Shown piece after piece: positions 37,052 to 59,384 of a stretch of DNA of 64,000 nucleotides. Below the pieces are notes generated by a model. It ran no database searches. It had not been told where the DNA came from and saw nothing but the letters and a program-made list of their open reading frames with translations. Every line of letters begins with the position of its first letter. The stretch's first letter is position 1. A program made the position numbers and the translations under genes. The stretch covers positions 174,346 to 238,345 of the forward strand of contig CAIKVT010000036.1 of the NCBI GenBank assembly GCA_903830945.1, read 5' to 3'. The DNA comes from an uncultured Elusimicrobia bacterium. GTDB taxonomy: Bacteria > Elusimicrobiota > Elusimicrobia > UBA1565 > UBA9628.

Positions 37052-38377
37052 ATGACTGCCCGCCGAGAGCCATTTTTCGATGCTTGGGAGTCGGCTTCCG
37101 AGGCGACCCGCCGCCGGGTCATCCGGAAGCGCCTGAGCGAGTATGTCGGCTACGCGCGGCGGCGCGCGCCTTTCTACCGGGACCGGCTTTCTCGCTTCAA
37201 GTGCGGATCCGAGCAGCCCTTGGCCGAGGTCCCGGTCCTCAGACCAGATGACTGCCGGTTGCTCCTGCCGCCTAAGAGCCGGCGCCTGGTCGTGGGTCGC
37301 GAAGCGGGCTGGACGGTCTTCCAGAGCGGCGGCACCACGGGTTTTCCCAAGACCGCGCTTTTCAGCCACTCTGAGATGGAAGCCCTCTATCTGCCCAATG
37401 CGCGCGGCTACCATGCCGTGGGGTTGAGCAAGAGCGACCGGGTCGCCAATCTTTTCGCCGTGGGCCAGCTCTATATGGGCTTCCTCCACGTGCACCGCGC
37501 CCTTGAGGCTTTCGGCTGCACCAACTTTCCATTCTCTAACCATACGCCGGCCGAATTCGTGCGGAGCTGTGCGAGGCTTTTTCATATCAACTGTATCACC
37601 GGCGTGGCGAGCGTGGCTCTTAACTGTCTGCGTGAGATGGAGAAGCTTGGGATGCGCGGCGTGCGCATCGAGAAGCTCTATTACAGCGCCGAGCACCTCT
37701 ACGACGCGGATAAGGCGGAGTTGCGCGAGCGTTTCGGCGTGCGTCAGGTCGCCACGCACGGTTACGGCACTGTGGACACCTGGTACCTAGGATACCAGTG
37801 CGCGGCCTGCCCCACCGGGGTCTTCCACGCGCACGACGACCAGGTTTTTCTGGAGGTGTGGGATGAGGAGGCGCGCCGCCCCTGCGCCGCGGGCCAGGCT
37901 GGCATGCTTTACGCCACGGTCTGGTCCAGGCGTCTGACGCCTTTGGTGCGCTACCGGGTCGGAGATCGTGCTCGTTGGCTGGTCGACCGTTGCCCCTGCG
38001 GTCGAACCACGCCGCTCTTTGAGCTTCTGGGCCGCGGCGACGATATCCTGCGCATCGGTTTTGATTCAATAGACTATGGCTACGTCCAAGGCTGCGTCAG
38101 CCGAGTGCCCGGCTTGCTGGGATCGGTGCAGATGCAGAAGCAGCGCGAGGCGGGCCGCGATCGGCTGGTGGTCCGTGTCGAGACCTTGGCTCGTTCTAAG
38201 GTCAGGCCGGCCTTGGCCGCGGCGCTTGAGCGCGAGATCCTCTCGCGCCGGCCTACTCTGTGCAGAGGGACGGCGCAGAAAACCGTCTGGCCTCTGCGCG
38301 TGGAACTCCTGGATGAGGGCCGGCTGCCCCGCAACCCGCGCACGGGCAAGCTCATCCGGGTGATTGACGATCGATGA
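37052..38377 (+). CDS. PaaK/LuxE-type AMP-forming acyl/aryl ligase (phenylacetate-CoA ligase-like)
   Basis: VFQSGGTTGFPKTALFS, PLVRYRVGDRARWLVDRCPCGRTTPLFELLGRGDDILRIG, C-terminus GRLPRNPRTGKL. Confidence 0.85.
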   Translation: MTARREPFFDAWESASEATRRRVIRKRLSEYVGYARRRAPFYRDRLSRFKCGSEQPLAEVPVLRPDDCRLLLPPKSRRLVVGREAGWTVFQSGGTTGFPKTALFSHSEMEALYLPNARGYHAVGLSKSDRVANLFAVGQLYMGFLHVHRALEAFGCTNFPFSNHTPAEFVRSCARLFHINCITGVASVALNCLREMEKLGMRGVRIEKLYYSAEHLYDADKAELRERFGVRQVATHGYGTVDTWYLGYQCAACPTGVFHAHDDQVFLEVWDEEARRPCAAGQAGMLYATVWSRRLTPLVRYRVGDRARWLVDRCPCGRTTPLFELLGRGDDILRIGFDSIDYGYVQGCVSRVPGLLGSVQMQKQREAGRDRLVVRVETLARSKVRPALAAALEREILSRRPTLCRGTAQKTVWPLRVELLDEGRLPRNPRTGKLIRVIDDR

Positions 38378-39849
38378 CTGCTCCCACCGCCAAGCTCGAG
38401 ATCCCGCCGCAGCGGATTTTCCTGGAGCCCACCGTGGGTTTCGTGCTCGCTTACGCTGCGCGCTTCGCTCGGGGTGAGACTGAGCAGGCCGAGCTCAGAA
38501 TCGCGGTCTCGGCCGTGCTCGACATGGTCATCGAGAACAACGCACGTGGCGGCGAGTCGGTGGCCGTGGAAGTCGGAGAAGCCGCGGGCAAGTTCAGAAT
38601 CTCGGTCATCAACCGCGGCGCGCCTATCCTGCTCAAGGGCGGCCGCAGCGGAATCCATTCCAATTATTACGCCAAGTTCCACGAGGCTTCCCAGCATGCG
38701 GACTCGGTGACTTTTGAGAATTCGGGCCGCCAGGGCCAGGCCGTGGTGCTTGAGATCCGTCTTGGCGCCGTGGCCGCGGCCATGTCGCTGCTGGCCAAGC
38801 CTGCACCGCAGGTTCCGGCGATCCCGGAGGACGAGGCCATCACGGTGCGCAGACTCGCTCCGGGGGAGGAGGACGCGCTCAGCCGTCTTTTCTACCTGGT
38901 CTACGGCTATGACTACATCAATGAGTTCGTCTACTATCCGGAGAAGATCAAGGCCATGATCGAGGCCGGAGACCTCCTTTCCATCGTGGCCGCGCGGCCT
39001 AACGGCCGGCTGGTGGGGCACGTGGGGCTGGTGCGCCGACATCGCGAGCCAGCGGCCTTCGAGGCAGCTATGGGCGCGGTGGACCCCATGGTCAAATCGC
39101 GCGGGCTCTTCGGCCAGCTTTTCGCCAAGACGATGGAAGCGGTCCAGAAGACGCCCATGCAGTACTGTCTCTGCGATTGCGTGACCAACCATGCCTTCAG
39201 CCAGAGGCACGTGGCCAAGTTCGGCGGCACCGAGCTTGCCCTCTACGCTGGCTGCCAGTCTCGCGAGACGCAGGCGCGCCTCGAGCGTCTTGGCTTGGGC
39301 AAGGACCCGGAGAGCATGTTGCGCTACAGCCTGCTGGTCTCGGTGATCCCTCGCGTGCCTCGTCCCTTTGGGGAGAGCATCATCCTGCCGGAGAGCATCG
39401 GCGAGAGGTTCGGCTTCCTGCTCAAGCCTTTCGGGTTGGCCTATTCGCCGGCGCCGCGCTTCCAGACCTTGCCCGCCATGGGGAGCTTTACGACCAGCAC
39501 GCTGCGCGCCCAATCCGCCGCGTTCTTCGACCTCTCCGCGCCAGGCCAAGAGGCCGCCGAAGACATCGTCGAGGAATGGCGGGAACTGCTGCGTGACGGC
39601 TTCGAGTACGCGGCTGTGGAGGTCCCGCTCGACGCGCCGGGCCTGGGACCTCTGTACGACATCCTTTCCTCGAACGGGTTCTTTGCCGCCGGGTTCGTCC
39701 CGTATCAGAGCTCGGCGCGGCTGGGATTCCGGTTCCAGGCGCTCGGGCCGACCAAGGTCGCCTTCGACGACATCAAGGTCGCGACCGAACATGGCAAGAA
39801 GCTTTTGGCGGCCGTGAGGAAGGACTACGAGGCCAACTGCCTCCTATGA
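38374..39849 (+). CDS. Fusion: HATPase_c/RsbW-like N-terminal domain + GNAT acetyltransferase domain + C-terminal acetyltransferase-like half
   Basis: ELRIAVSAVLDMVIENNARGGESVAVEV...FRISVINRGAPILLKGGRSGIHSNYYAK (anti-sigma-like ATPase pattern), then ITVRRLAPGEEDALSRLFYLVYGYDYINEFVYYPEKIKAMIEAGDLLSIVAA; ATGA overlaps on both sides. Confidence 0.7.
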   Translation: MTAPTAKLEIPPQRIFLEPTVGFVLAYAARFARGETEQAELRIAVSAVLDMVIENNARGGESVAVEVGEAAGKFRISVINRGAPILLKGGRSGIHSNYYAKFHEASQHADSVTFENSGRQGQAVVLEIRLGAVAAAMSLLAKPAPQVPAIPEDEAITVRRLAPGEEDALSRLFYLVYGYDYINEFVYYPEKIKAMIEAGDLLSIVAARPNGRLVGHVGLVRRHREPAAFEAAMGAVDPMVKSRGLFGQLFAKTMEAVQKTPMQYCLCDCVTNHAFSQRHVAKFGGTELALYAGCQSRETQARLERLGLGKDPESMLRYSLLVSVIPRVPRPFGESIILPESIGERFGFLLKPFGLAYSPAPRFQTLPAMGSFTTSTLRAQSAAFFDLSAPGQEAAEDIVEEWRELLRDGFEYAAVEVPLDAPGLGPLYDILSSNGFFAAGFVPYQSSARLGFRFQALGPTKVAFDDIKVATEHGKKLLAAVRKDYEANCLL

Positions 39850-40964
39850 GACTGGTGAACTGCGAAGCCGTCTGCCGCGTGAAGGACCCGCATGTCTGGA
39901 CGCCGGCCAAGACCCGGCTCATGGTCGCGGCCTGCCGGGAGATGGCCGTCTTCCACGGCCGCAACTCACGGGAACTCTCCGCGCTCTACCGTCGCAAGGG
40001 CTTTACGCCGTGCTCAATCCGGACCGAGGCGGACCTCAAGCGCATCCCCATGCTCGGCGTGAGCGCTATGAAGCGATTCCTGCTCACCTCCTTGCCTCAT
40101 GAGAGATCCGTGCTGCGCCTGACCTCCTCGGGAACGCGCGGGCAGAAGACCCAGATCTGGTTCGACGCGGCGAGCCTGGAGCGCTGCCAGTCCCAGTTGA
40201 GCGTGCTTTGGGAAGAAGAAGGCCTGCTCTCCCGGGAACCGACCAACTACCTCATGTTCGTCTACGACCCGAAAGAGGCCAAGGACCTGGGCATCGCATT
40301 CTCGGACACGAACCAGCAGCGCTTTGCGCCGGCCGCGCGGGTCTTCTATGCGGTGCGCAAGGGGCGCGGCGGCGCTTGGGATTTCCGTAAGGCCGATGCC
40401 TTGCGCGCTCTCCGGGAATACGCCGGCGCGGGCTTGCCTGTGCGCATCTTCGGCATACCCGGCTTCATCTACGAGTTCCTTGAAGAGATGAAAGAGCCAG
40501 TGCGCCTGCCGCCGCACAGCTGGATGGTGACGGGCGGGGGCTGGAAGGCCGCGGAGGATAAGAAGGTCTCACGGGAGTTCTTCCGGGAGCTGGCCGCCAA
40601 GATGCTGGGCTTGGACGCGGAGAATATCCGCGACGGCTACGGCATGGCCGAGCACTGCGCGCCGTACTTGGAATGCCGGAAGCACCGTTTTCATGTGCCG
40701 GTCTACAATCGCGTCTACGCGCGAGATCCGGTGACCCTGGCGGTCCTGCCGCCCGGCCAGCCGGGGCTTCTAGAGCTCATCACGCCCTGGAACGCCATGA
40801 TGCCCAACCTCGCCATCCTTTCCACGGACCTGGGCCGGATCGACGAGGGACGCTGCCCCTGCGGCTACAATTCGCCGACCTTCACCTTGCTGGGCCGGGG
40901 CGGCCTGAGCAAGCACAAGGGCTGCGCCATCCACGCGGGCGAGATCGTGCGGAGGTCCTCGTGA
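39846..40964 (+). CDS. LuxE-like acyl-protein synthetase / AMP-binding enzyme
   Basis: VLRLTSSGTRGQKTQIWFD, GDGYGMAEHCAPYLEC-like region (RDGYGMAEHCAPYLEC), LGRIDEGRCPCGYNSPTFTLLGRGGLSKHKGCAIH. Confidence 0.85.
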   Translation: MRLVNCEAVCRVKDPHVWTPAKTRLMVAACREMAVFHGRNSRELSALYRRKGFTPCSIRTEADLKRIPMLGVSAMKRFLLTSLPHERSVLRLTSSGTRGQKTQIWFDAASLERCQSQLSVLWEEEGLLSREPTNYLMFVYDPKEAKDLGIAFSDTNQQRFAPAARVFYAVRKGRGGAWDFRKADALRALREYAGAGLPVRIFGIPGFIYEFLEEMKEPVRLPPHSWMVTGGGWKAAEDKKVSREFFRELAAKMLGLDAENIRDGYGMAEHCAPYLECRKHRFHVPVYNRVYARDPVTLAVLPPGQPGLLELITPWNAMMPNLAILSTDLGRIDEGRCPCGYNSPTFTLLGRGGLSKHKGCAIHAGEIVRRSS

Positions 40965-43558
40965 GGTCCCAGTACTGGTTCGGCGAATGGCATGATGGAG
41001 AACTTTTGGCTGCCGACGCCTCTCGGCTTTGCCGCAGGGCCGCGGGATTGCGGCAGGCCATGGCCGACTATCCTCTCGATAAGGTCCTGCGGCTGTTGAG
41101 CCGCGTGCAAAAGCGTTGGCAGGCTCCGTCCTACGGCCCGCGCAGGGCGGCTGAGAAGGCCTTGCCAGGCGTGACCGGTTTTTCTCCGGCGATGGTGCGC
41201 CGCGGGCTTCAGGAGCTCTGCTGGACTTTCGATCCGGATCTCCTGCGCCAGAAGATGGACGCGGAGCTTCCCGGCCATGAGGGCCTAGGCGCCTGCCGTT
41301 GGGAGCCTTTGGGCACGGTCCTGCATGTGCTGGCGGGCAATGTGTTCGTGGGCGCGGCCGGCTCCTTGGTCGAGGGGTTGCTGACTCGGAACGTGAACAT
41401 CCTCAAGATGTCCTCCTCGGAGGGCGTGTTCCTGCCTTTGCTCATCGAGTCTTTGCGTGAATGCGATGAGGATGGGATCATCTCTGGATCGCTGGCTGTG
41501 GTGCAGTTCGGGCAGAAGCAGACGGACGTGATCGAGGAGTTCAAGCGCGATGCGGATGGGATCGTGGTCTGGGGCGGGGAGTCCGCGGTGCGCGGCTGGC
41601 GCGGCGGCTTGCCCGCGCGCGCGCGCCTGATCGTGTTCGGGCCGAAGCTCAGCGTAGCCGTGGTCACCAAGGCGGGCCTGCGTGAAGGCAGGCCTGATGA
41701 TTTGGCCGGGCGTCTGGCCAAGGAGATGAGCATCTGGGACCAGAACGCCTGCACCGCTCCCCAGGCTTGCTACGTTCAAGGCGAGGACAACGCGCGCCGC
41801 CTTTTGGATGCGCTTCCCAAGGCACTGGACAAGGCGGCTCAGCTGATGCCTCCTGGAGAAGTGGACACGGACGCGGCGGTGGAGATTTGGAAATTGCGCG
41901 CCGTGGCTGAGGTGGCGGAGGCCCGGGGCGAGGGCGCTCTGCGCGAGTCCGCCCGACGGTTGGACTGGACCGTGCTCATGGACCGGGACTTGACCTTGGC
42001 GCCTTCGCCTTTGCACCGGACCTTGCGCGTGATCCCTTTCAAAAAGATCTCCGATGTCGTGGAGCAGCTGGCCGCCTTGCGCGGCTACATCCAGACTGTG
42101 GGCCTGGCCGCCGGGCCATCTGAGCAGGAAGAGCTGGCGGATGGTCTCTCGGACGCGGGCGCCCTGAGGATACTCGAGCTCGGCCATATGGCCGAGGGAG
42201 AGATCGACGACCCTCACGACGGGGCCAAGGACCTGCCGCAGTTCATGCGCCTGGTCCTGCGCCGACTGCCGGGCCGCAAGGACTGGACGCCCGCGGAGAC
42301 GCTGTCGCAGGCCCGGCGACAGGAGCTCATCGACGCGAGGCTGCGTCGTCTCATGGATGTCGCGCGTAAGTCTCCTTTTTATAGCCGCAGGCTCAGGGGC
42401 ATGAGCATCGCGACGGTCGCGGATTTGGTCAGGGTCCCGGAGCTCACTCGGGAGGAGATGGAGGCGAACATGCCTCCTCAGGGCGAGGCTTTGGGCACGG
42501 GCGCTTGGACCGGGGGTTATGTCTCAAGAAGCGGCGGCTCTACCGGCGTGCCCAAGTTCTCGGTCTATGACAGGCACGATTGGGAGGCGATGATCGAAAG
42601 CGGCGCGGATGTGTTCCGCGGCCTGGGGCTGCAGTCGGCGGACCGGCTCGGCAATTTCATGCTGGCCGGGGACCTTTATGGGAGCTTCGTCTCTTTCGAC
42701 CATGTCAATCACCGGCTGGGGCTGGCGACCTTCGGCTTCGCCGGCAATTCCAAGCCCGAGACCTTCGTGGAGGTCTGGCGGCAGTTCCGCATCAACGCGG
42801 TGGAGGGGATCCCGACGCAGCTCGTGCCGTTCCTGCGCGAGGCTAAGAGGCAGGAGCCGAAGCTGACCTTGGAAAATGTGGTCTATGCTGGCTCACCCAT
42901 GAGCTTGTTCGATCATGATTGGCTGAAGTCGGCTTTGAAGGTGAAGCGCATCTCCTCTGTCATCGGGGCCAACGACGGCGGCCAACTGGGCTATCAGTGC
43001 GAGCATATGCGCGGGTCCTTGCATCACACTATAGACGAGTTCAACTGGATCGAGGTGGTGGACGATAAGGGGCGGGCGGTCCGGGAGGGGGGGACAGGGA
43101 GGATATTGATCACGAGTCTCCTGAAATTCGCCTATCCTTTGATCCGCTATGCGATCGGAGACGTCGGCCGTATCGTAAAGGGCGCATGCCCTTGCGGCCG
43201 GCCGGCGCGGCGTTTCGAGCTATTGGGGCGCAGCGACGACATGATTTCCGTGGGCAATATGAACATGCGCCACCGCGACTTCGTGGCGGCGCTCAAGGGC
43301 CTGCCGGTCTCGGCCTTGCAGATCGCGGCGCTGAGCGACGAGGAGGGGGAGTCTTTGGCCGTGCGCGTGGAGACGCCCTTGGCGTCGCCGGAGCTGGAGA
43401 AGCGGGTGCGGCGGGCCCTGCTTGCCGGCATGGGGAAACTCAAGGAGCGGCTGGCCGACGGCAGTTTGAAGGAGTTGTCCTTGTCGCTGTACAAGTCCGG
43501 CGAGTTGCCGCGCAATCCGCGCACGGGCAAGCTCAAGAGCCCGGTGGACGAAAGATGA
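40961..43558 (+). CDS. LuxC-like acyl reductase fused to a PaaK-type adenylation domain
   Basis: GTG at 40961 (GTGA overlap). N-half: GTVLHVLAGNVFVGAAGSLVEGLLTRNVNILKMSSSEGVF and catalytic-Cys region WDQNACTAPQACYV; C-half: SRSGGSTGVPKFSVYD, PLIRYAIGDVGRIVKGACPCGRPARRFELLGRSDDMISVGN, GELPRNPRTGKL. Confidence 0.87.
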   Translation: MRSQYWFGEWHDGELLAADASRLCRRAAGLRQAMADYPLDKVLRLLSRVQKRWQAPSYGPRRAAEKALPGVTGFSPAMVRRGLQELCWTFDPDLLRQKMDAELPGHEGLGACRWEPLGTVLHVLAGNVFVGAAGSLVEGLLTRNVNILKMSSSEGVFLPLLIESLRECDEDGIISGSLAVVQFGQKQTDVIEEFKRDADGIVVWGGESAVRGWRGGLPARARLIVFGPKLSVAVVTKAGLREGRPDDLAGRLAKEMSIWDQNACTAPQACYVQGEDNARRLLDALPKALDKAAQLMPPGEVDTDAAVEIWKLRAVAEVAEARGEGALRESARRLDWTVLMDRDLTLAPSPLHRTLRVIPFKKISDVVEQLAALRGYIQTVGLAAGPSEQEELADGLSDAGALRILELGHMAEGEIDDPHDGAKDLPQFMRLVLRRLPGRKDWTPAETLSQARRQELIDARLRRLMDVARKSPFYSRRLRGMSIATVADLVRVPELTREEMEANMPPQGEALGTGAWTGGYVSRSGGSTGVPKFSVYDRHDWEAMIESGADVFRGLGLQSADRLGNFMLAGDLYGSFVSFDHVNHRLGLATFGFAGNSKPETFVEVWRQFRINAVEGIPTQLVPFLREAKRQEPKLTLENVVYAGSPMSLFDHDWLKSALKVKRISSVIGANDGGQLGYQCEHMRGSLHHTIDEFNWIEVVDDKGRAVREGGTGRILITSLLKFAYPLIRYAIGDVGRIVKGACPCGRPARRFELLGRSDDMISVGNMNMRHRDFVAALKGLPVSALQIAALSDEEGESLAVRVETPLASPELEKRVRRALLAGMGKLKERLADGSLKELSLSLYKSGELPRNPRTGKLKSPVDER

Positions 43559-45474
43559 TGGCGCCCGCCCCGCTTCATGCCGGCCTGCCCCCGCTCATCC
43601 CGCGAGAGGTCCTCTTCGGCAACCCTGAAAAGGCCAACCCCAAGCTCTCCCCTGACGGCAAGCGGCTCGCCTGGATCGCCCCCGACCAGAAGAACGTACT
43701 CCAGGTCTGGATCAAGACCATCGGCCAGGACGACGATAAGATCGTCACGGCCGACAAGAAGCGCGGCATCCGCAGCTACTTCTGGGCCCACAATAATAGG
43801 GACCTTATCTACATGCAGGATGCCGACGGAGACGAGAACTGGCACGCCTATGGCGTCGATCTCGAATCCGGCAACGTCCGTGACTACACCCCTTTCCAGG
43901 GCGTGCGCGCCGACATCACGGCCGCGGACCCCAAGTTCCCTGACGAGCTCCTGGTCCAAATCAACCTGCGCGACCGTCACCTTTTCGATGTCCATCACCT
44001 TGATCTTAAGACCGGCGCCTTGGTCCTCGATACGCCTAACCCCGGCGACGTCGAGTCCTTTACGGCGGACGCCGACTTCAAGGTCCGCGCCGCGCAAGTC
44101 AATACCCCGGACGGCGGCACCGAGATCCGCATCCGAAAGGACGCCAAATCCTCCTGGCAGTCCTGGATCATGGTCGGGGCCGAGGATATCCTTGGGTTTC
44201 AGGATTTCACGGCGGACGGCAAGTCCGCCTATCTTGTTTCTTCGGTGGGAAGCGACACGGCCCGCGTCGTGGAGAAGAACATCGCGACCGGGGTCGAGAA
44301 AGTGGTGGCCGCCACGGTCGACGTGGACGCGGCCGGGGTCATGATCCACCCCCGCCGCCACATCGTGCAGGCCGTGGGGTTTGCCCGGGGCCGCACTGAA
44401 TGGACGGTGGTGGACCCCTCGGTCAAGGCCGATTTTGAGGCCATCAAGAAGATCTACGACGGCGACTTTACGGTCATCAATCGCGACGATCAGGACGCGG
44501 TCTGGCTCGTGGCTTTCACCGTGGACAACGGCCCGATCCGTTTTTACTCCTGGGACCGTTCGGCCAAGAAGGAGACTTTCCTGTTCGCGCACCAGCCTAA
44601 GCTCGAAGGACTGCGGCTGGCCAGGATGCAGTCGGTCACCATCAAGTCCCGCGATGGCCTGGACCTGCACTCCTATCTGACCTTGCCCGTGGGCATCCCG
44701 GCCAAGGATCTTCCGCTGGTGCTGTTCGTGCACGGCGGGCCCTGGGGCCGCGACATGTGGGGCTACAGTTCCTACGCCCAATGGTTCGCCAACCGCGGCT
44801 ACGCCTGCCTGCAGGTCAACTTCCGCGCCTCCACCGGCTACGGCAAGAGGTTCCTCAATGCCGGCAATAAACAGTGGGGCCTTAAGATGCACGACGACCT
44901 CATCGACGCGATGGACTGGGCCGTGGCGCAGGGCTATGCGGACCCCGGGAAGGTCGCGGTCATGGGCGGCTCCTACGGCGGCTACGCGGCCCTGGCCGCC
45001 GTCGCCTTCACGCCCGAGGCATTCGCCTGCGCCATCGATATCGTGGGGCCCTCGAATCTTAAGACCTTGGTCCAGTCCATCCCGCCTTACTGGAAGCCCA
45101 TGCGCGCCACGTTCGACGTGCGCATGGGCAACATTGACGACCCCAAGGAGGCGGAGCTCATCAAGAACGCCTCGCCGCTCTTCAAGGCGGACCGGATCGT
45201 GCGGCCGCTCTTGATCGGACAGGGCGCCAACGACCCGCGCGTCAAGCAGGCCGAGTCCGAGCAGATCGTCGCGGCCATCGAGAAGAACAAAGGCAAGGTC
45301 ACCTACGTCCTCTACCCGGACGAGGGGCACGGCTTCGCCCGGGCGGAGAACCGCATCGACTTCAACGCCCGCGCTGAGGCCTTCCTGGGGGCCAACCTGG
45401 GCGGCCGCGTCGAGCCCATGCCGGCAGACCCTGCTCCGGGTTCGACGGCTGTGGTCAGAGTCATCGGGAAGTAG
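43555..45474 (+). CDS. S9-family prolyl oligopeptidase-like serine peptidase
   Basis: FVHGGPWGRDMWGYSSYAQWFANRGYACLQVNFRASTGYGKRF, GGSYGGYAALAAVAFTPE, YPDEGHGF. ATG at 43555 overlaps the upstream stop. Confidence 0.93.
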   Translation: MMAPAPLHAGLPPLIPREVLFGNPEKANPKLSPDGKRLAWIAPDQKNVLQVWIKTIGQDDDKIVTADKKRGIRSYFWAHNNRDLIYMQDADGDENWHAYGVDLESGNVRDYTPFQGVRADITAADPKFPDELLVQINLRDRHLFDVHHLDLKTGALVLDTPNPGDVESFTADADFKVRAAQVNTPDGGTEIRIRKDAKSSWQSWIMVGAEDILGFQDFTADGKSAYLVSSVGSDTARVVEKNIATGVEKVVAATVDVDAAGVMIHPRRHIVQAVGFARGRTEWTVVDPSVKADFEAIKKIYDGDFTVINRDDQDAVWLVAFTVDNGPIRFYSWDRSAKKETFLFAHQPKLEGLRLARMQSVTIKSRDGLDLHSYLTLPVGIPAKDLPLVLFVHGGPWGRDMWGYSSYAQWFANRGYACLQVNFRASTGYGKRFLNAGNKQWGLKMHDDLIDAMDWAVAQGYADPGKVAVMGGSYGGYAALAAVAFTPEAFACAIDIVGPSNLKTLVQSIPPYWKPMRATFDVRMGNIDDPKEAELIKNASPLFKADRIVRPLLIGQGANDPRVKQAESEQIVAAIEKNKGKVTYVLYPDEGHGFARAENRIDFNARAEAFLGANLGGRVEPMPADPAPGSTAVVRVIGK

Positions 45475-45600: not shown

Positions 45601-46776
45601 ATGCAATACATGATTTTAAAGCGTGACGAGGCCGCCGCCTTGCGTTCCCACCTGCGTATATTCCCGGTCGTCCTCGTGGCCGGACCCAGGCAGTCGGGCA
45701 AGACGACTTTGGTGCGCAGTGAATTGCCCTCCTGGAAATATCTCGATCTGGAAAACCCTACCGACTTCGACCTATTGGCGTCTGATCCCGAGACATTCCT
45801 GACCGAGAACCCGGGCCAGCTGATCATAGATGAGGCCCAGCGGCATACGAAACTTTTCCCCGTTTTGCGCGGAATCATCGATCGCAAGCGGCATCCGGGA
45901 GCTTTCGTGCTGACGGGCTCAGCCGCGCCCACCCTCATGAAGCAGGCCGGCGAGAGCCTGGCGGGACGCATCGGGATTCTGGAGATGACCCCTTTCGGCA
46001 CTTCCGAACTGGCCTCCAAACCGCAGTGGTTGACGCAGCGTTGGTTCTGGGGAGGGCTTCCGCCCCTTTATACCCTCAAAACTTCCGCCCAGAAAACGAC
46101 CTGGCTGGAGCAATACGCCCGCAATTTCCTTGAGCGGGACATCCCTGGCTTGGGGGTCCACGTGCCCGCCGTTCGCTTGCGCAAGCTCTGGACCATGCTG
46201 GTCCATGTCCACGGCGGCCTGCTCAACCTGTCCGACTTGGCGCGGGCCTTGGACCTGTCCGTCCCCTCGGTCGCTCATCATCTGGACATATTGGAAGGCG
46301 CCTTCATGATCCGCCGGCTGCAGCCCTTCCACGCGAACATCTCCAAACGCTTGGTCAAAAGCCCGAAACTCTATATCCGCGACACAGGCCTCCTGCACCA
46401 TCTGGCGGGCCTGCGCCAGCCACGAGACTTGGATACTTGGCCCGGCCGTGGGCAGTCATGGGAAGGATTCGTCCTGGAGGAACTCATTAGGCGAGCCAAA
46501 CTTCGCTGGCCCGCGCCGAACTTTTATTTCTGGAGGACGCAGGCAGGGGCGGAAGCCGACCTGATCATTGAGAATGGCCGCACGCGCCTTGCCATCGAGA
46601 TCAAATCTGGAGTTTCGTTACCGGCCAAGAGCCTGCTCGGGATCCGTCAGTGCATGAAGGACTTAGGCCTGCGTTCAGGGTTCGTCATTTATCGCGGAGA
46701 CAGAACGCTTCGGGTCGCTCCAGGGCTCTCAGCCATCCCCTGGGCGCAGCTCGAAAAGGGCGGGTTTCCAGCCTGA
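45601..46776 (+). CDS. AAA ATPase with DUF4143 domain
   Basis: VLVAGPRQSGKTTLVRSELPSWKYLDLE, LIIDEAQRHTKLFPVLRGIID, FVLTGSAAPTLMKQAGESLAGRIGILEMTPF. Confidence 0.92.
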   Translation: MQYMILKRDEAAALRSHLRIFPVVLVAGPRQSGKTTLVRSELPSWKYLDLENPTDFDLLASDPETFLTENPGQLIIDEAQRHTKLFPVLRGIIDRKRHPGAFVLTGSAAPTLMKQAGESLAGRIGILEMTPFGTSELASKPQWLTQRWFWGGLPPLYTLKTSAQKTTWLEQYARNFLERDIPGLGVHVPAVRLRKLWTMLVHVHGGLLNLSDLARALDLSVPSVAHHLDILEGAFMIRRLQPFHANISKRLVKSPKLYIRDTGLLHHLAGLRQPRDLDTWPGRGQSWEGFVLEELIRRAKLRWPAPNFYFWRTQAGAEADLIIENGRTRLAIEIKSGVSLPAKSLLGIRQCMKDLGLRSGFVIYRGDRTLRVAPGLSAIPWAQLEKGGFPA

Positions 46777-46870
46777 ATGGCACACTCTCCAGCTTAAAGC
46801 GGCTGCAGCCTTCAAGAATCATGCCCCTGGGCCCAAAGACCCTCCCGGCATGCCTTCAGGAAGATATAAT

Positions 46871-47923
46871 ATGTGGCTTATGATCCCTTCGTGGGCTTCC
46901 CGCCTCCGGGTCTGCGGCCTGCTAGCTTTCGTTCTGGTGCTGGCATGCTGCGGCTTGTCTACCCCAGTCCAGGCGCAGGTCAGCCTGGAGCGCATCTACT
47001 CTCAAGCCCGCCTGCTGGACCCTGATCTTCCCGCCCTTTCCGCCCTGCAGCCGGCTGAGGTTCCGGCCGTTATCGCGACTCTTAAGTCCGTGTCTTCGGC
47101 AGCGGCTGAGCCCCGAGCCCTGTACAGCGAGATCGTCCGCGGCAAAGCGGCCTTGCAGGGGTTGGCTGCAGAGCAACGCCAGCAGCTTTGGGACGCGGTC
47201 TTCCGGCATCCCGTGGCGGGCCTGGACGACGAGAAGAAGCTGAAGAAATACGACCCTCAGGGCGTCATCGGCTTCTGCTTCGGTCGCTCCATGGCCGCGC
47301 ACCTGCTGGCGCGCAAGCTGGGCCTGGCCGAGGATTCGGTGCGCAACCTCTTCGTCATCGGCGACCTGCGCGAGGGCGCAGACCCGGAGTGGCGGTTTCA
47401 CGTGACGGCCCTGGTCAAGGGCGAGGACGGGGCTTGGTACGCCATAGACCCGATCATGGAGGGCCCCATGACCTCCTCGGCCTGGATGGCCGCGGTGCGC
47501 AACACCTGGGACAAGGGCCGCAAGGCCAAGTTCTACATGACCCCGGCTTCCACGATCTTGCCGGACGTGACCGTGGTTCCTGAGTCGGGCCAGGAGAAGG
47601 GCGTCCATATCATCGAGCTCTCTTTCGATTCCGCGGGCAAGGCCGGCTTCTCGACCATGCCCGGGCTGGGAGACGAGGTTTTTTCCGTGTCCGCGGATGC
47701 GGTGCTGAATTATTTCAAGGATGTGGACGCCGCGGCCGGCGCCTTCGACTTCGCGGGCACCCCGGTCAACGACATGCATATCTCCTACAACGGCTACTTC
47801 GCAGACCTCCTGCGAGACATCACGGCAGGGGTCCAAGGCATGATGCAGTATGCGGAGCCGCGGCCGGCCGGCCCCAAGGTGCGGCCGCTGGGCCTGCGCC
47901 CTGGCAGACTGCAGCCGCGTTAG
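46871..47923 (+). CDS. Exported protein with protein-glutaminase/transglutaminase-like Cys-His-Asp region
   Basis: Signal peptide; GFCFGRSMAAHLLARKL...NLFVIGDLREGADPEWRFHVTALVKGEDGAWYAIDPIMEGPMTSSAWMAAV, patterned like bacterial protein-glutaminase. Start 46871 or 46880. Confidence 0.65.
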   Translation: MWLMIPSWASRLRVCGLLAFVLVLACCGLSTPVQAQVSLERIYSQARLLDPDLPALSALQPAEVPAVIATLKSVSSAAAEPRALYSEIVRGKAALQGLAAEQRQQLWDAVFRHPVAGLDDEKKLKKYDPQGVIGFCFGRSMAAHLLARKLGLAEDSVRNLFVIGDLREGADPEWRFHVTALVKGEDGAWYAIDPIMEGPMTSSAWMAAVRNTWDKGRKAKFYMTPASTILPDVTVVPESGQEKGVHIIELSFDSAGKAGFSTMPGLGDEVFSVSADAVLNYFKDVDAAAGAFDFAGTPVNDMHISYNGYFADLLRDITAGVQGMMQYAEPRPAGPKVRPLGLRPGRLQPR

Positions 47924-47924
47924 C

Positions 47925-49145
47925 ATGGATGCCCTAGCCCTGCGCACTCCGCTCATCCTGCGCAACCGGAACATGTTCCTCATCTGGTCCGGCCAGGCCT
48001 TGAGCCAGATGGGTACGCGCATGTACCAGATCGCGCTGGCCTGGTGGATCGTCACCACCGGCGGGGGGGGCAAAGAGGTCGGCCTCTTCATGGTCGCGGG
48101 CGCCCTGCCCGCCCTTGCCTTCGTCAAGGTCATCGGCAAGGCCGTGGACCGCCATCAAAGCCGCTCCACGCTCATCGCCTGCGACCTCTGCGCCTTCGCC
48201 GTCACCATCGTCGTCGTCCTCCTGTTCCGCGCCGAGCGCCTGGGATTTTCCGGCGCTTGCATCGCGGGCTTCTTCCTGGCCCTGGCCCAGGCCTTCTTCG
48301 ATCCGGCGCTGAGCAAAGCCGTGGCCGAGGCCGCCCCACCCGAGGACCTTGAAGCCGCGGTCGCTTTTCAGTCCTCCACCCAGTCTTTGGCCAGTTTCGC
48401 CGGCGCCATGGCCGGCGCCCTGCTCATCGACCGCATCGGCATACTCGGAGTCGTCATCCTCAACGCCTTGAGCTTCATTGTCTCGGCCGGAGCCAACGCC
48501 CTGCTCGACATCCCGCCCGCCGCACATTCTGCGACTCCGGCTCTGGAGGCGGTCTCAGCCTGGGAGGCGCTACGGCAGACACCTTGGCTCAAGAAAGTCC
48601 TTATTGGATTCGGCTGCGTCAACTTCTTCCTTACGCCGATCCTCGTGATCCTGCCCCTCTACGTGAAGATCACTTTGGGCGGTACGGCAACTTTGCTTGG
48701 AGTTCTGGAAGCCGCAATCTGGCTCGGCATACTTGCCGGCACCTTTGGCGCCAAACGGATTCTCACCGGCGGCACGACGTCTGGCGTCCTGCGCCTTGGA
48801 GCCGCTTGCATGCTGCTGCTGGGTGTGGCGCTCTTTGTGCCTGGCGTCTTCATGCACGGAGGACTTTTCTTCGTCGCGCTTTTCTGCGCCGGCTGCGCTC
48901 TGGGCGTCAACAATGTCAAGTTCGTCACCCTCTTCCAGGAGCGCGTGCGGCCCGAGCTTAAGGGCCGTTTCTTCGCCCTCATGCAGGCGCTCTTGAGCTT
49001 CACCTTCCCCGCCGCCTTCTTCCTTTTCGGGCTCCTCGCCGAGATCATGGCCCCGCCTAAGGTCTGCATCATCCAGGCCCTCGGCGTGTTGGCTCTTTCG
49101 GGATACTTTTTGCGCCTCTCCCAGACCACGGAGGTCAGACCGTGA
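47925..49145 (+). CDS. MFS transporter
   Basis: RNRNMFLIWSGQALSQMGTRMYQIALAWWIV, ~12 TM; real start ATG 47925. Confidence 0.88.
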   Translation: MDALALRTPLILRNRNMFLIWSGQALSQMGTRMYQIALAWWIVTTGGGGKEVGLFMVAGALPALAFVKVIGKAVDRHQSRSTLIACDLCAFAVTIVVVLLFRAERLGFSGACIAGFFLALAQAFFDPALSKAVAEAAPPEDLEAAVAFQSSTQSLASFAGAMAGALLIDRIGILGVVILNALSFIVSAGANALLDIPPAAHSATPALEAVSAWEALRQTPWLKKVLIGFGCVNFFLTPILVILPLYVKITLGGTATLLGVLEAAIWLGILAGTFGAKRILTGGTTSGVLRLGAACMLLLGVALFVPGVFMHGGLFFVALFCAGCALGVNNVKFVTLFQERVRPELKGRFFALMQALLSFTFPAAFFLFGLLAEIMAPPKVCIIQALGVLALSGYFLRLSQTTEVRP

Positions 49146-50284
49146 CCAATAAGAAAGGATTCGATTGCCGGTTCGTCGAGTTGGATGACGCCTTCGACCT
49201 GATGCGTCTCTACCAGGGCTCCATCCCCAGGATAAAATCTGATGCGTTGTTCCTGGACCTCGCGCGTCTGCGCGGTGAGATCGAGACTAACGGCCGTTAT
49301 TGGGCGGTGGCCTTGTCCAAAGGTCAGATCGTCGCCCTGATCGCGCTCCAGCACGACGCGGAGAACCGCCTGGGGCGCGTGCGTCGGATGTACGCGGCCG
49401 GGCCGGAGATCGAGCGGCGCGAGGCCCTGTCGGTCGCGCTGTCCTTCTTGATGGAGAGGCTCGTGGCCGACGGCGCCACCGACGTGGTCTACTCCACCAC
49501 GCGCACCTTGACGCTCGAACAGCAGGACCTCGCTCTGGAGCAGGGCTTCAAAGTGCTGGGCGTCTTCCCCAATGCGGTCCATGCCGATCCCCGACGGCTC
49601 AACGGCCTGAGCGCCTGGTACGCGCCGGAGGTGCTCAGCAAGCGCCGGCACGCCGAGTTCAGCCTGCATCCCGTCGTGGAGCCATTCTTCGAGATCGTGC
49701 GCAAGCAATGCGACTTGCCCAAGCAGGGCACGGCGAAGGTCCCGGCTCCATCCGCGGACCTCGAGCCGGCCCCGGCCCTGGAGATGGTCGAGGCGCCGCG
49801 CTTTGTGGCCGAGCGTTATCGCCAGGTCAAGGCCCGCAAGAACCTCTCGGTCAATTTCTTTCCCTTCGAGACGCCTAACATCCTCTTCACCAGTCCCGAT
49901 GGTAAGGTCGAAGTGTTCGTGCGGCTGGTCAAGCAGACGCGCTTCGCCTGCATCCTGGGAGAGCACATCACCGGCGCGGTGGACCCTGTGCGCCTCTACC
50001 GCGACGTGGCCGCGGCTCTTTACGCCAGCCGCATCACTTATATCGAGGTGATCAACGACGCGGCGGACGTGCTGAGCACGGAGTGCATCCTGCGCGCGGG
50101 CTTCGTGCCGTGCGGCTATCTGCCTTGCCTTAAGCCGGCGGGCGAGAAGCGGCGCGACTACGTGGTCTTCGCCCGTTCTTATGAGTATTTCACCTATCCG
50201 CGGCTGAAGGTCAATTCCCTTTACCTTGATTATCTGCGGGAATACTGCAAGGCCCGGGCCGCCATGTCCACCCGCGACGCCTAA
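49142..50284 (+). CDS. GNAT-like double-domain acetyltransferase
   Basis: GTG start overlapping the MFS stop; NGRYWAVALSKGQIVALIALQHDAENRLGRVRRMYAAGPEIERREALSVALSFLMERLVADGATDVVYSTTRTLTLEQQDLALEQGFKVLGVFPN. Confidence 0.65.
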   Translation: MTNKKGFDCRFVELDDAFDLMRLYQGSIPRIKSDALFLDLARLRGEIETNGRYWAVALSKGQIVALIALQHDAENRLGRVRRMYAAGPEIERREALSVALSFLMERLVADGATDVVYSTTRTLTLEQQDLALEQGFKVLGVFPNAVHADPRRLNGLSAWYAPEVLSKRRHAEFSLHPVVEPFFEIVRKQCDLPKQGTAKVPAPSADLEPAPALEMVEAPRFVAERYRQVKARKNLSVNFFPFETPNILFTSPDGKVEVFVRLVKQTRFACILGEHITGAVDPVRLYRDVAAALYASRITYIEVINDAADVLSTECILRAGFVPCGYLPCLKPAGEKRRDYVVFARSYEYFTYPRLKVNSLYLDYLREYCKARAAMSTRDA

Positions 50285-50294
50285 ATTTCATATA

Positions 50295-52271
50295 ATGCCG
50301 TTTCCCGTGTTCGAGCGAATCCGGCTCTTCCTGTTCGGCGCGCCCCGTGACCTCAACGACCCGCAGCTTCACCACCGCGTGTCGCTCGTCGCCTTCCTGG
50401 CTTGGATCGGTTTAGGCGCTGACGGACTGTCTTCTTCCTGCTACGGCCCTGACGAGGCTTTTCGGGCCTTAGGACCTCACTCGCACCTAGCCATCCTGCT
50501 CGCCGTCATGACGGCGGTCACCATCTTCGTCATTGCCGTCGCCTATTCCAACGTCATCGAGCATTTTCCCGGAGGCGGGGGCGGCTATCTGGTCGCGACC
50601 AAGCTCCTGGGGGAAAAGGCCGGCGTGGTGTCCGGCTGCGCTTTGATCGTGGATTACGTCCTCACCATCACGGTGTCGGTGGCCAGCGGCTGCGACGCCC
50701 TCTGGTCGTTCTTGCCTCCGCACTGGGCCGCCTACAAGCTCTGGGCGGAATTCGTGGTCCTGTTTTTCCTCGTGCTCCTTAATCTGCGCGGGGTCAAGGA
50801 ATCCGTCACCGCGCTGGCCCCCATCTTCCTGCTTTTCGTCGGTACTCATGTTTTCCTGATCCTCTATGCCTTGGGCAGCCATCTGACCGGCCTGCCGACG
50901 ATCCTCCACGGAGCAGCTTCCGACCTGCACGCTTCGATCAGCTCTATCGGAGGATTGGCCGTGGGTCTCATCGTCCTGCGCGCCTACTCCATGGGCGGCG
51001 GTACTTACACAGGCATCGAGGCCGTGTCCAACGGCATCACCATGCTGCGCGAGCCCCGGGTGCAGACCGGCAAGAAGACCATGGCTCTCATGGCCGCGTC
51101 TCTCGCCTTCACGGCCGGAGGCATCCTGATGGGCTACCTTCTGGTGGATGCCTTGCCGGTGCCGGGCAAGACCATGAACGCGGTCTTGCTGGACAGACTC
51201 TTCTCTTCCTGGATGCTGGGCGGGTTCCCCCTGGGACAGGTCGTCATCATCACGACCTTGATCACCGAAACGGCCATCCTTTTCGTGGCGGCGCAGACGG
51301 GGTTCTTGGGCGGGCCTCCGGTCTTGGCCAACATGGCCGTGGACTCCTGGGCGCCCCGCATGTTCGCGCAGCTCTCGGAGCGGCTGGTGGCCAAGGATGG
51401 GGTCCTGCTCATGGGCGCCGCGGCCATCGCCGTGCTCTTCTACACCCGCGGCAACATCTCGACCTTGGTGGTCATGTACTCCATCAACGTCTTCCTCACC
51501 TTCTCGTTGACCGAACTGGGCATGACGCGGCATTGGAACGCGGCACGGCGGGGGAAGGACCCGCGCTGGAAGGTCCAATTGCCCATCCATGTCACGGGAC
51601 TGGTCATGTGCGTGTGCATCCTCGGCGTCACCCTCTACGAGAAGTTCTCGGAAGGCGGCTGGGTCACCGCCGCTATCACCGGCTGCGCCATCGGCCTGTG
51701 CTTCCTCATCCGGCGCCATTACAATGCGGTGCGCCATGAGATGAGGCGACTCGACAGCCTGCTCGAGATCCCGGTGCCGCAGGATAAGCCGGAGCTCTCC
51801 CCGATGGACAAAAAGGCGCCTACCGCCGTGGTCATGGTGGGCGGGTTCTCCGGCTTCGGCCTGCATCAGATCCTCTCCATCCAGAAGCTGTTTCCCTATT
51901 ATTTCAAGACCTTCGTCTTCCTGTCCGTCGGCGTTGTGGATTCCGGCAACTTCAAGGGCTCGTCCGAGATCAAGCGGCTCGAGGAGCGGACCGGCCAGGA
52001 GCTGCAGCGCTATGTGGACTGGTGCCAGGCCAACGGCTTCCAGGCGGCCTGCCGCTTCTCCATGGACACCGAGGTGGTGCCGGCGCTGGAGGAGCTGTGC
52101 CACGAGGTCGCGCGCGAGTTCCCGCGCGCCATCTTCTTCACCGGCAAGCTCATCTTTAAGGAGGAGAAGCTCACCCAGCGGCTTCTCCATAACGATACCG
52201 CCTTCGCCCTGCAAAGGCGCCTGCAGTTCTCCGGCCTGCAGACCGTGGTCCTGCCCATCCGGGCCACCTGA
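50295..52271 (+). CDS. KimA-like APC-superfamily potassium transporter (copy 1)
   Basis: FPGGGGGYLVATKLLGEKAGVVSGCALIVDYVLTITVSVASGCDALWSFLP and C-terminal RLLHNDTAFALQRRLQFSGLQTVVLPI match KimA/YdaO pattern; ATG 50295. Confidence 0.85.
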   Translation: MPFPVFERIRLFLFGAPRDLNDPQLHHRVSLVAFLAWIGLGADGLSSSCYGPDEAFRALGPHSHLAILLAVMTAVTIFVIAVAYSNVIEHFPGGGGGYLVATKLLGEKAGVVSGCALIVDYVLTITVSVASGCDALWSFLPPHWAAYKLWAEFVVLFFLVLLNLRGVKESVTALAPIFLLFVGTHVFLILYALGSHLTGLPTILHGAASDLHASISSIGGLAVGLIVLRAYSMGGGTYTGIEAVSNGITMLREPRVQTGKKTMALMAASLAFTAGGILMGYLLVDALPVPGKTMNAVLLDRLFSSWMLGGFPLGQVVIITTLITETAILFVAAQTGFLGGPPVLANMAVDSWAPRMFAQLSERLVAKDGVLLMGAAAIAVLFYTRGNISTLVVMYSINVFLTFSLTELGMTRHWNAARRGKDPRWKVQLPIHVTGLVMCVCILGVTLYEKFSEGGWVTAAITGCAIGLCFLIRRHYNAVRHEMRRLDSLLEIPVPQDKPELSPMDKKAPTAVVMVGGFSGFGLHQILSIQKLFPYYFKTFVFLSVGVVDSGNFKGSSEIKRLEERTGQELQRYVDWCQANGFQAACRFSMDTEVVPALEELCHEVAREFPRAIFFTGKLIFKEEKLTQRLLHNDTAFALQRRLQFSGLQTVVLPIRAT

Positions 52272-52280
52272 TCCCGGATT

Positions 52281-52289
52281 TGCTATAAT
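52281..52289 (+). promoter_or_regulatory. Extended -10 (TGCTATAAT) driving the riboswitch leader
   Basis: ggattTGCTATAATcaaatc immediately upstream of the ydaO aptamer. Confidence 0.6.
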
Positions 52290-52299
52290 CAAATCACAC

Positions 52300-52436
52300 A
52301 GCCTAAGCCGGTGCCAACGGCATCGGCGCGGGGGACCCAAACTCCTCGGAAGTCACGGGGATGGGGCGTAGGGCGCGAGAAAAGCGCGTCCAGGTCACTT
52401 CCATGACCCAGCCCGTCAGCTAACCTCGCCGGCATT
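52300..52436 (+). ncRNA. ydaO/yuaA-type cyclic-di-AMP riboswitch aptamer
   Basis: GCGGGGGACCCAAACTCCTCGG, GGGATGGGGCG, and 3' signature CCCGTCAGCTAACCTCGCCGGC (cf. ydaO ...GACAGCUAACCUCG...); closing helix GCCGG (52307-52311)/CCGGC (52429-52433); lies before a KimA-like gene. Confidence 0.9.
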
Positions 52437-52468
52437 TGGAAGGGTGATCCTGCCGACTGCCGTCGCGG

Positions 52469-52489
52469 CCCTGGGTCCCCCAGGGAGAG
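52469..52489 (+). promoter_or_regulatory. Hairpin overlapping the Shine-Dalgarno (possible expression platform)
   Basis: CCCTGGG tcc CCCAGGG followed by AGAG; SD AGGGAGAG (52482-52489) overlaps the 3' arm; ATG at 52498. Confidence 0.55.
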
Positions 52490-52497
52490 TGACTCGT

Positions 52498-54459
52498 ATG
52501 CTCGACAGGATACGGCTGTTCCTTTTCGGCGCGCCCCGCGACCTCAACGATCCCCAGATTTACCATCGCGTCTCGCTCGTCGCTTTCCTGGCCTGGGTCG
52601 GCCTGGGCGCGGACGGTCTCTCCTCCTCCTGCTATGGACCTGACGAGGCTTTCCGGGCTCTGGGTCCTCACTCGCACCTCGCCATACTGCTCGCCGTCAT
52701 GACCGCGGCCACCATCTGCGTGATCGCCATCGCCTATTCCAACGTCATCGAGCATTTCCCTGGGGGCGGGGGCGGCTACCTGGTGGCGACCAAGCTTCTT
52801 GGCGAGAAGGCCGGCGTGGTGTCCGGCTGCGCTTTGCTCGTGGACTATGTCCTGACCATATCGGTGTCGATCGCGAGCGGCTGCGACGCTTTGTGGTCGT
52901 TTTTGCCTCCGCAGTGGGCGGCTTACAAGCTGTGGGTGGAATTCGGCGTCCTCTTATTCCTCGTGGTCCTTAACATGCGCGGCGTGAAGGAATCCGTCAC
53001 CCTCCTGGTCCCCATCTTCCTGCTCTTCGTCTGCAGCCACGTTTTCGTGATCCTCTACGCTCTGGGCAGCCATTTGACCGGTTTGCCCACGGTCTTCCAT
53101 GGCGCCGCCGCGGACCTGCACGCTTCCCTCCATTCGATCGGCCCTCTGGCTGTGGGCCTCATCCTCCTGCGCGCCTATTCCATGGGCGGCGGTACTTATA
53201 CGGGCATCGAGGCCGTGTCCAACGGCATCAGTATCCTCCGGGAGCCCCGGGTGCAGACCGGAAAGAGGACCATGGCGCTGATGGCCGGCTCGCTGGCTTT
53301 CACGGCCGGCGGCATCCTGCTGGGATATCTGTTGGTCGGAGCCATGCCGGAGCCGGGCAAGACCATGAACGCGGTTCTGCTGGAGAGGCTCTTCACGTCC
53401 TGGAGGCTCGGGCCTCTGCCTCTGGGGCAGGGCATCGTCATCACGACCTTGGTTTCCGAGGCGGTGCTCCTCTTCGTCGCGGCCCAGACCGGCTTCCTGG
53501 ACGGGCCGCGCGTCCTGGCCAACATGTCCGTGGACTCCTGGATGCCCCACCGCTTCGCCCAGCTCTCCGAACGACTGGTGGCTAAGGACGGCATCCTGCT
53601 CATGGGCGCCGCGGCCATCGCCGTGCTCCTCTACACGCGCGGCGATATCACGATGCTGGTGGTCATGTATTCCATCAACGTCTTTCTCACCTTCTCGCTG
53701 ACCGAGCTTGGCATGGCGCGGCATTGGATAGAGTTGCGGAAGACGGACCCGCTCTGGAAGGTCCAGCTGCCCATCCACTCCACGGGGCTGGTCATGTGCC
53801 TGAGCATCCTCGTCGTCACGCTTTATGAGAAGTTCTCGGAAGGCGGCTGGATCACCGCGGCCATCACCGGCTGCGCCATCGCCCTGTGCTTCCTCATCCG
53901 TCGGCATTACCGGCAAGTGCGCCATGAGCTGCGGCGGCTCGACAGCCTTCTCGAGATCCCGATGCCGCGTGATAATCCGGGCCTCTTCCCGTTGGACAAG
54001 GAAGCGCCTACCGCCGTGGTCATGGTTGGGGGCTTCTCCGGCTTCGGCCTGCATCAGATACTCTCCATCCAGCGTCTGTTCCCGTATTACTTCAAGAACT
54101 TCGTCTTCCTGTCCGTGGGAGTGGTGGATTCCGGGAATTTCAAGGGCTCGGCCGAGCTCAAGCGGCTCGAAGAGCAGACCGTCGCGGATCTGAAGCGCTA
54201 CGTCTCCTGGTGCCAAGCCCATGGCTTCCAGGCCGCCTATCGTTTCGCGCTGGACACCGAGGCCGTCACCGCTCTGGAGGGACTCTGCCGCGAGACAGCC
54301 CGGGAATTCTCCCGCGTCATATTCTTCTCGGGCAAGCTGATCTTTAAAGATGAGAGATTCGCGCACCAGATCCTGCACAACGACACAGCTTTCGCCATCC
54401 AGCGGCGTCTGCAGTTCGACGGCCTGCAGACCGTGGTCCTGCCCATCCGGGCTACATGA
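52498..54459 (+). CDS. KimA-like APC-superfamily potassium transporter (copy 2, riboswitch-controlled)
   Basis: MLDRIRLFLFGAPRDLNDPQIYHRVSLVAFLAWVGLGADGLSSSCYGPDEAFRALGPHSHLAILLAVMTA nearly identical to copy 1. Confidence 0.88.
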   Translation: MLDRIRLFLFGAPRDLNDPQIYHRVSLVAFLAWVGLGADGLSSSCYGPDEAFRALGPHSHLAILLAVMTAATICVIAIAYSNVIEHFPGGGGGYLVATKLLGEKAGVVSGCALLVDYVLTISVSIASGCDALWSFLPPQWAAYKLWVEFGVLLFLVVLNMRGVKESVTLLVPIFLLFVCSHVFVILYALGSHLTGLPTVFHGAAADLHASLHSIGPLAVGLILLRAYSMGGGTYTGIEAVSNGISILREPRVQTGKRTMALMAGSLAFTAGGILLGYLLVGAMPEPGKTMNAVLLERLFTSWRLGPLPLGQGIVITTLVSEAVLLFVAAQTGFLDGPRVLANMSVDSWMPHRFAQLSERLVAKDGILLMGAAAIAVLLYTRGDITMLVVMYSINVFLTFSLTELGMARHWIELRKTDPLWKVQLPIHSTGLVMCLSILVVTLYEKFSEGGWITAAITGCAIALCFLIRRHYRQVRHELRRLDSLLEIPMPRDNPGLFPLDKEAPTAVVMVGGFSGFGLHQILSIQRLFPYYFKNFVFLSVGVVDSGNFKGSAELKRLEEQTVADLKRYVSWCQAHGFQAAYRFALDTEAVTALEGLCRETAREFSRVIFFSGKLIFKDERFAHQILHNDTAFAIQRRLQFDGLQTVVLPIRAT

Positions 54460-54621
54460 ACAGCGCCTTGAGGTCGAAGTCGTTCAATCGGGCTGGCGCG
54501 GCGTGCGGGTCTTTCCGGGCAGCCAACCGAGTCTCTCCCTAAGTCCTTTGGCCCACTACGGCTTGGGTCATCTAGCTGATCCGCGTTGGGCCTTTGGCTA
54601 CTATGGGGCCTCAGGCCTCCA

Positions 54622-54630
54622 TGTTACACT
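54622..54630 (+). promoter_or_regulatory. Extended -10 (TGTTACACT)
   Basis: ccaTGTTACACTctgcgcaatATG; 9 nt between the hexamer and ATG 54640. Confidence 0.4.
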
Positions 54631-54639
54631 CTGCGCAAT

Positions 54640-56628: not shown

Positions 56629-56644
56629 ACATGAGGCGATATCT

Positions 56645-58033: not shown

Positions 58034-58132
58034 CGAGGCGCATTGCATCATGGGTCGAAGGGGGTATTTATTTTTAGGTCTGAAAGTGTTGCTAACGTGG
58101 GACTTATGACTCAAGCCTATCTGGCAGGCCCT

Positions 58133-58141
58133 TGCTATTAT
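58133..58141 (+). promoter_or_regulatory. Extended -10 (TGCTATTAT)
   Basis: gcccTTGCTATTATgtgtg upstream of the 58174 ORF, with SD gcggaggaaag before ATG. Confidence 0.45.
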
Positions 58142-58173
58142 GTGTGTGCCTTTCATGCGGAGGAAAGTAATTA

Positions 58174-59238: not shown

Positions 59239-59384
59239 CTTTAGGTCTTTGGGTTCTGGTTATTGGATTTCAAAGGGACAAATTTTCTTAATCCTGCCTA
59301 GGACCTTTGCCGCTCTTCCCTTGCCCCTGCGGCCCAACCTTTTCGTTGGGCTATTGTTATCCTAGTAACGTGGCAACCAATGTT

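Follow-up and report, generated by a model that had tools for sequence, protein, structure and literature searches.

The locus lies in a 64,000-nt stretch of DNA (hereafter, the window) from an Elusimicrobiota MAG, an uncultured Elusimicrobia bacterium. Five genes follow one another on the plus strand, at 37052-38377, 38374-39849, 39846-40964, 40961-43558 (GTG start) and 43555-45474, and each is joined to the next by a 4-nt overlap (ATGA, ATGA, GTGA and ATGA, in order). These coordinates and junction sequences bear out the initial annotation, which had read them as real genes with 4-nt overlaps. The first gene, A, encodes a PaaK-like adenylating ligase (441 aa; A3 motif SGGTTG, A10 lysine Lys433), and the second, B (491 aa), combines a degenerate RsbW-like domain with a tandem GNAT. 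C is a LuxE acyl-protein synthetase (372 aa; A3 motif SSGTRG, acyl-carrying Cys360), and D (865 aa) joins a LuxC acyl reductase (Cys264) and a PaaK-like adenylating module (A3 motif SGGSTG, A10 lysine Lys857) in one polypeptide. The three adenylation modules and single LuxC described earlier are all there, and in their motifs SGGTTG, SSGTRG, SGGSTG and QNACTAPQ the key residues are conserved. The fifth gene encodes an S9 peptidase (PF00326, E 4e-44), which we judge to be a bystander.

An operon ending at 45474, as first drawn, is too narrow. Neighbourhoods of D homologues in related genomes display the order G-A-B-C-D-MFS-GNAT, with G upstream of A; in the window, G, the MFS gene and the GNAT gene are found 3′ of the S9 peptidase gene and of a second bystander, an AAA_14/DUF4143 ATPase gene (45601-46776, plus strand), both of which intervene after D. 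All three are again on the plus strand: G (46850-47923) encodes a secreted-looking protein resembling transglutaminases and protein-glutaminases, H (47850-49145) an MFS transporter that probably starts somewhat 3′ of 47850, and I (49142-50284) a tandem GNAT-fold protein of 380 aa whose start overlaps the end of H (GTGA). The operon, and with it the conserved set, extends to 50284, with G, the MFS transporter and the tandem GNAT as conserved neighbours. Across 11 homologues of G we found a weak match to the protein-glutaminase family (best E 1e-5) and invariant Cys143, His184 and Asp200. Directly after the operon, 50226-54459 holds two successive, very similar membrane-transporter genes of 670-680 aa, a tandem duplication that looks amino acid permease-like by eye. 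Beyond it, at 54586-62645, lies a series of secreted-looking proteins with a common N-terminal stretch (A-I-I/V-x-x), among which we recognized, by eye only, an M28-like peptidase and a HAD-MFS fusion at 59307.

We scanned a genome collection with a 20-sequence alignment of D, kept the best 80 of 449 relatives and added two plasmid loci. Among the 52 of these loci with full flanks (from the best 80 of 449 relatives plus the two plasmid loci), which carry about a dozen phylum labels, LuxE lies beside D in 51, a tandem GNAT (I or B) is present in 50, the PaaK ligase A in 31, an MFS gene in 27 and G in 4. LuxC and PaaK are fused in all 82 loci, a count that is biased because the query is itself a fusion. 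The core is made up of LuxE, the LuxC-PaaK fusion and a tandem GNAT. In other Elusimicrobiota families than the window's, the triad I-C-D stands alone in 15 of 16 loci, and the sixteenth is cut by a contig end before I. Gene order, whose conservation in relatives the initial annotation had left to be checked, is indeed conserved. We saw no obvious aldehyde-using enzyme (aminotransferase, oxygenase or SDR) conserved in the set. An anti-phage defence function was rejected, as a PADLOC scan of six of the proteins returned no match.

By our count, full-length fusions occur in about 60 of 295 sampled Elusimicrobiota genomes. In a tree of D, one clade comprises Actinomycetota, Bdellovibrionota and Pseudomonadota, another contains the window's D and carries A-B-C-D, and a further one mostly has I-C-D alone. 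Some phyla are scattered over the tree (three changes for Elusimicrobiota, seven for Bdellovibrionota), which suggests transfer of D between phyla, and no more than suggests it, since MAG binning and paralogues can scatter phyla in the same way. In Streptomyces, both plasmids and chromosomes carry PaaK, MFS, GNAT, LuxE and LuxC-PaaK in one row; a strict pairing of PaaK with GNAT fails in this clade. Two Salmonella IncF conjugative plasmids (L163:6719-12476 and L167:9420-15178) carry LuxE, LuxC-PaaK, PaaK and a GNAT, and no near match to the Salmonella copy was found in E. coli genomes. One of the two has a disrupted GNAT reading frame, and upstream there is a short MFS-like fragment. A link to peptide modification, raised by a peptidase-type ABC exporter upstream on one of the plasmids, was dropped because the second plasmid has the same 5.3 kb with different genes upstream.

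The assignments of C and of the N-terminal half of D are clear at the family level: C matches LuxE (PF04443, E 1e-32) and the D half matches LuxC (PF05893, E 3e-80). Against the solved LuxC-LuxE complex (7xc6), C aligns to LuxE with E 8e-20, placing Cys360 on the C-terminal acyl cysteine, and the LuxC half of D aligns to LuxC along its length. Cys360 is kept in 77/77 LuxE homologues and Cys264 in 84/84 LuxC homologues, and the A5 glutamate is Glu in 76/77 of the LuxE proteins. Scores for the NCBIfam equivalogs are far under their cut-offs (105.1 of 750 bits for LuxC, 80.4 of 550 bits for LuxE). The luciferase family (PF00296, LuxA/LuxB) has no match anywhere in the host genome, whereas control genomes did match, in agreement with the earlier statement that luxAB is missing. 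The LuxD family (PF02273) has no match in the host genome either, in a search in which no control genome matched. With the catalytic residues of the LuxC and adenylation domains kept on alignment, reduction of an acid to an aldehyde by a LuxE-to-LuxC acyl relay appears to be the best reading, and the carboxylic acid reduction first proposed for the locus is well supported by residue conservation and gene order.

For the two PaaK-like modules, A matches the NCBIfam PaaK and DVU_1553 families (E 1e-24 to 5e-32) and phenylacetate-CoA ligase 4r1l (E 1e-23). Nearly all homologues of A and of the D C-terminal half retain the ANL P-loop, A7 Asp, A8 Arg and A10 Lys, with the A10 lysine kept in 83/84 for D and 43/46 for A. 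The A5 glutamate of classical ANL enzymes is replaced by Asp in 44/46 A and 81/84 D homologues, a substitution that, as read from the alignments, would count against a pathway built on acyl reduction. A and the C-terminal half of D had been called paralogues because both contain 'LPRNPRTGKL'. Because this string represents the A10 motif, which holds the catalytic lysine of ANL enzymes, any two of them are expected to have it in common, and that argument falls. The proper evidence is a full-length BLASTP alignment, in which the two ligases are 30% identical over 444 columns.

B has no Pfam match of its own below 0.01, and its make-up, an RsbW-like domain followed by a tandem GNAT, was read from the family alignment, an AlphaFold2 model and PDB fold matches. 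The model (pLDDT 86.6) has an N-terminal RsbW/SpoIIAB-like domain and then GNAT, and matches RsbW 6m37 (TM 0.87 by target), 1tid and 1th8 as well as GNATs. In the window copy, the N-box Asn, G1 Asp and G2 GxG of the ATP site are gone; these motifs are also gone from the operon copies in the window's clade and are kept in most distant homologues. HATPase_c_2 matches 12 of 26 B-family members, the window's B not among them. Of the 'HATPase-GNAT fusion' first described, the RsbW fold and the GNAT part therefore hold, but an active HATPase is not supported, the ATP motifs being lost in the operon copies. Elsewhere in the host genome (contig C82, L156:2307-3839), a B paralogue with intact RsbW ATP motifs lies beside STAS-like and amidohydrolase-like genes, a pairing also seen in four further genomes (L152-L155).

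The model of I (pLDDT 92) shows a GNAT with a further GNAT-like domain after it, and its fold matches include the tandem-repeat GNAT MAB_4324 (7q3a). B and I are homologous across the GNAT part (hhalign probability 98.1). The strongest invariants of I are in the second domain. In the window copy, the acyl-CoA loop of the first domain is degenerate, which would argue against an acyl-reduction pathway in which the GNATs take part.

Domain identity, conserved catalytic residues and a conserved partnership are established here at the level of sequence, and from them we consider it somewhat better than an even bet that the locus encodes a pathway to a small molecule with a lux-type acyl reductase at its centre. 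In it, LuxE (C) would adenylate a carboxylic acid and carry the acyl group on Cys360, from which it would move to Cys264 in the LuxC half of D, to be reduced there to an aldehyde, putatively with NAD(P)H. Ligase A and the PaaK module of D would turn that acid, or another one, into acyl-AMP or acyl-CoA. Acyl groups activated in this way would most likely be transferred to an amine by the tandem GNATs I and B, and the MFS protein H would export the product. That the gene set makes a small molecule is probable; the aldehyde as the end of the reaction, the order of the steps, the use of the GNATs and the export are what we infer. The lack of a conserved aldehyde-using enzyme counts against this pathway. 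A more specific and widely spread version, which we consider unlikely, would have PaaK and GNAT build an N-acylated acid, the LuxE-LuxC relay reduce it to an N-acyl (amino) aldehyde, and the MFS transporter export this as an inhibitor or signal.

For the GNATs, the strongest competing account is acetylation control of the A10 lysine. Here the acyl-reductase core would be kept, and the tandem GNATs would be regulators that acetylate Lys433 of A and Lys857 of D to switch the ligases off, with the RsbW-like domain of B as the remnant of a partner-switching input. Control of AMP-forming CoA ligases by GNAT (Pat) acetylation of the active-site lysine is an established mechanism (PMC4053389, PMC11619455), and every cluster here has ligases with an invariant A10 lysine. 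Distant B homologues with an intact RsbW ATP site adjoin STAS-like genes in some genomes, and RsbW-like and sensor genes lie near the Azonexus, Sulfurimonas and Dokdonella loci. Nevertheless, the RsbW-like domain in the window is degenerate, the set has no conserved deacetylase gene, and the GNAT is tied to the core as tightly as LuxE is, three-gene clusters included (50/52 full-flank loci from the best 80 of 449 relatives plus two plasmid loci). Because of this tight tie, a pathway enzyme fits better than a regulator, and we regard regulatory GNATs as rather improbable.

A further alternative is that LuxE and LuxC form an acyl relay without reduction, in which no aldehyde is made and LuxC hands the acyl group on as an ester, amide or thioester with the PaaK module or the GNATs. 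Such a relay would agree with the fusion partner of LuxC, which is a ligase and not an enzyme that consumes aldehydes, and with the fact that no gene for aldehyde use is conserved, and PaaK-like ligases tied to bond formation do exist (the BagE/FevW family, a weak match). However, the LuxC half retains the whole ALDH-like fold region together with its nucleophile, and its match to the LuxC of a solved fatty acid reductase is not confined to a part, so that we hold a non-reductive relay to be quite doubtful.

That the five genes, S9 peptidase included, form one pathway operon is highly improbable: the 4-nt overlap at 43555 is real and would couple both genes in the host genome, but none of the 82 related loci (the best 80 of 449 relatives plus two plasmid loci) has an S9 gene on the same strand near D, and other congeners have the MFS gene directly 3′ of D. 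In the congener G002, D and the S9 gene are 1.2 kb apart, with an epimerase-like gene between them, and the S9 product starts with a signal peptide, MNNPLRAGRRIPYEIIAALFTIAMTAAPLHAG..., whereas the window copy starts MMAPAPLHAG... and misses that region. Compared with G002, both the signal-peptide region and the epimerase-like gene are gone from the D/S9 junction at 43540-43600. Since the window S9 has no signal-peptide region, the overlap looks like a deletion junction, probably made by a recent deletion. The membership of the peptidase, as read in the initial annotation from that overlap, is accordingly rejected, there being no conserved operon joint.

The locus had been called undescribed, and we likewise found no description of the gene set in the open PMC literature (subscription journals lie mostly outside it), although relatives in kind, the lux LuxCE proteins and GriC/GriD, are known. 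Here lux-type chemistry appears to lie at the heart of a small, conserved gene set with about a dozen phylum labels and with partners not known from any lux operon. Its carriers include culturable Streptomyces species, among them S. avidinii and S. eurocidicus, and two Salmonella plasmids, and it can be tested in Streptomyces. If an exported aldehyde or derivative is made, this class of biosynthetic locus would probably be overlooked by rules keyed to enzymes of polyketides, peptides or terpenes.

Several parts of the set resemble known proteins. A and the D C-terminal half are homologous to PaaK-like CoA ligases such as phenylacetate-CoA ligase 4r1l and keep the ANL motifs, but differ in the A5 Glu-to-Asp change in nearly all members and in scores far under the PaaK equivalog cut-offs. 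The N-terminal domain of B shares the fold of RsbW/SpoIIAB-type HATPases without their ATP motifs, and I shares that of the tandem-repeat GNAT MAB_4324. LuxE-LuxC pairs also occur in non-luminous bacteria, on plasmids of Pantoea, Azospirillum and Streptomyces europaeiscabiei; unlike in D, LuxC is not fused to PaaK there, and the partners are other ones (SDR or RiPP-like genes). On the Pantoea and Azospirillum plasmids (L165:4685-8032, L166:4670-10511), a LuxE-like ligase and an unfused LuxC have an SDR gene nearby, as if to take an acid to an alcohol. The S. europaeiscabiei plasmid (L164:886-9344) has LuxE and unfused LuxC with YcaO-like, DUF692 and MBL-fold genes, and resembles a RiPP-type cluster that includes an acyl reductase.

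GriC/GriD, which are PaaK/F390-synthetase-like and LuxC-like, are to our knowledge the nearest described non-luminous precedent. In the grixazone biosynthesis of S. griseus, they form an ATP-dependent two-protein acid reductase, in which an adenylating protein and a reductase turn a free acid into an aldehyde in a non-luminous bacterium (PMC10179220). At the locus, A, C and D likewise bring adenylating proteins and a reductase together in one operon; GriC/GriD are, however, two separate proteins without LuxE or GNAT, and the likeness is one of description.

The best-known task of LuxC and LuxE is to provide luciferase with its substrate. With the lux fatty acid reductase (LuxC, LuxE and LuxD; 7xc6), the locus shares the C-terminal acyl cysteine of LuxE, the nucleophilic cysteine of LuxC, adjacent genes and homology along the length of the proteins. 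It differs in having no luciferase, in the fusion of LuxC to a PaaK module, and in its second ligase, tandem GNATs and MFS transporter. In its working, the locus would resemble the lux fatty acid reductase, yet it is no lux system.
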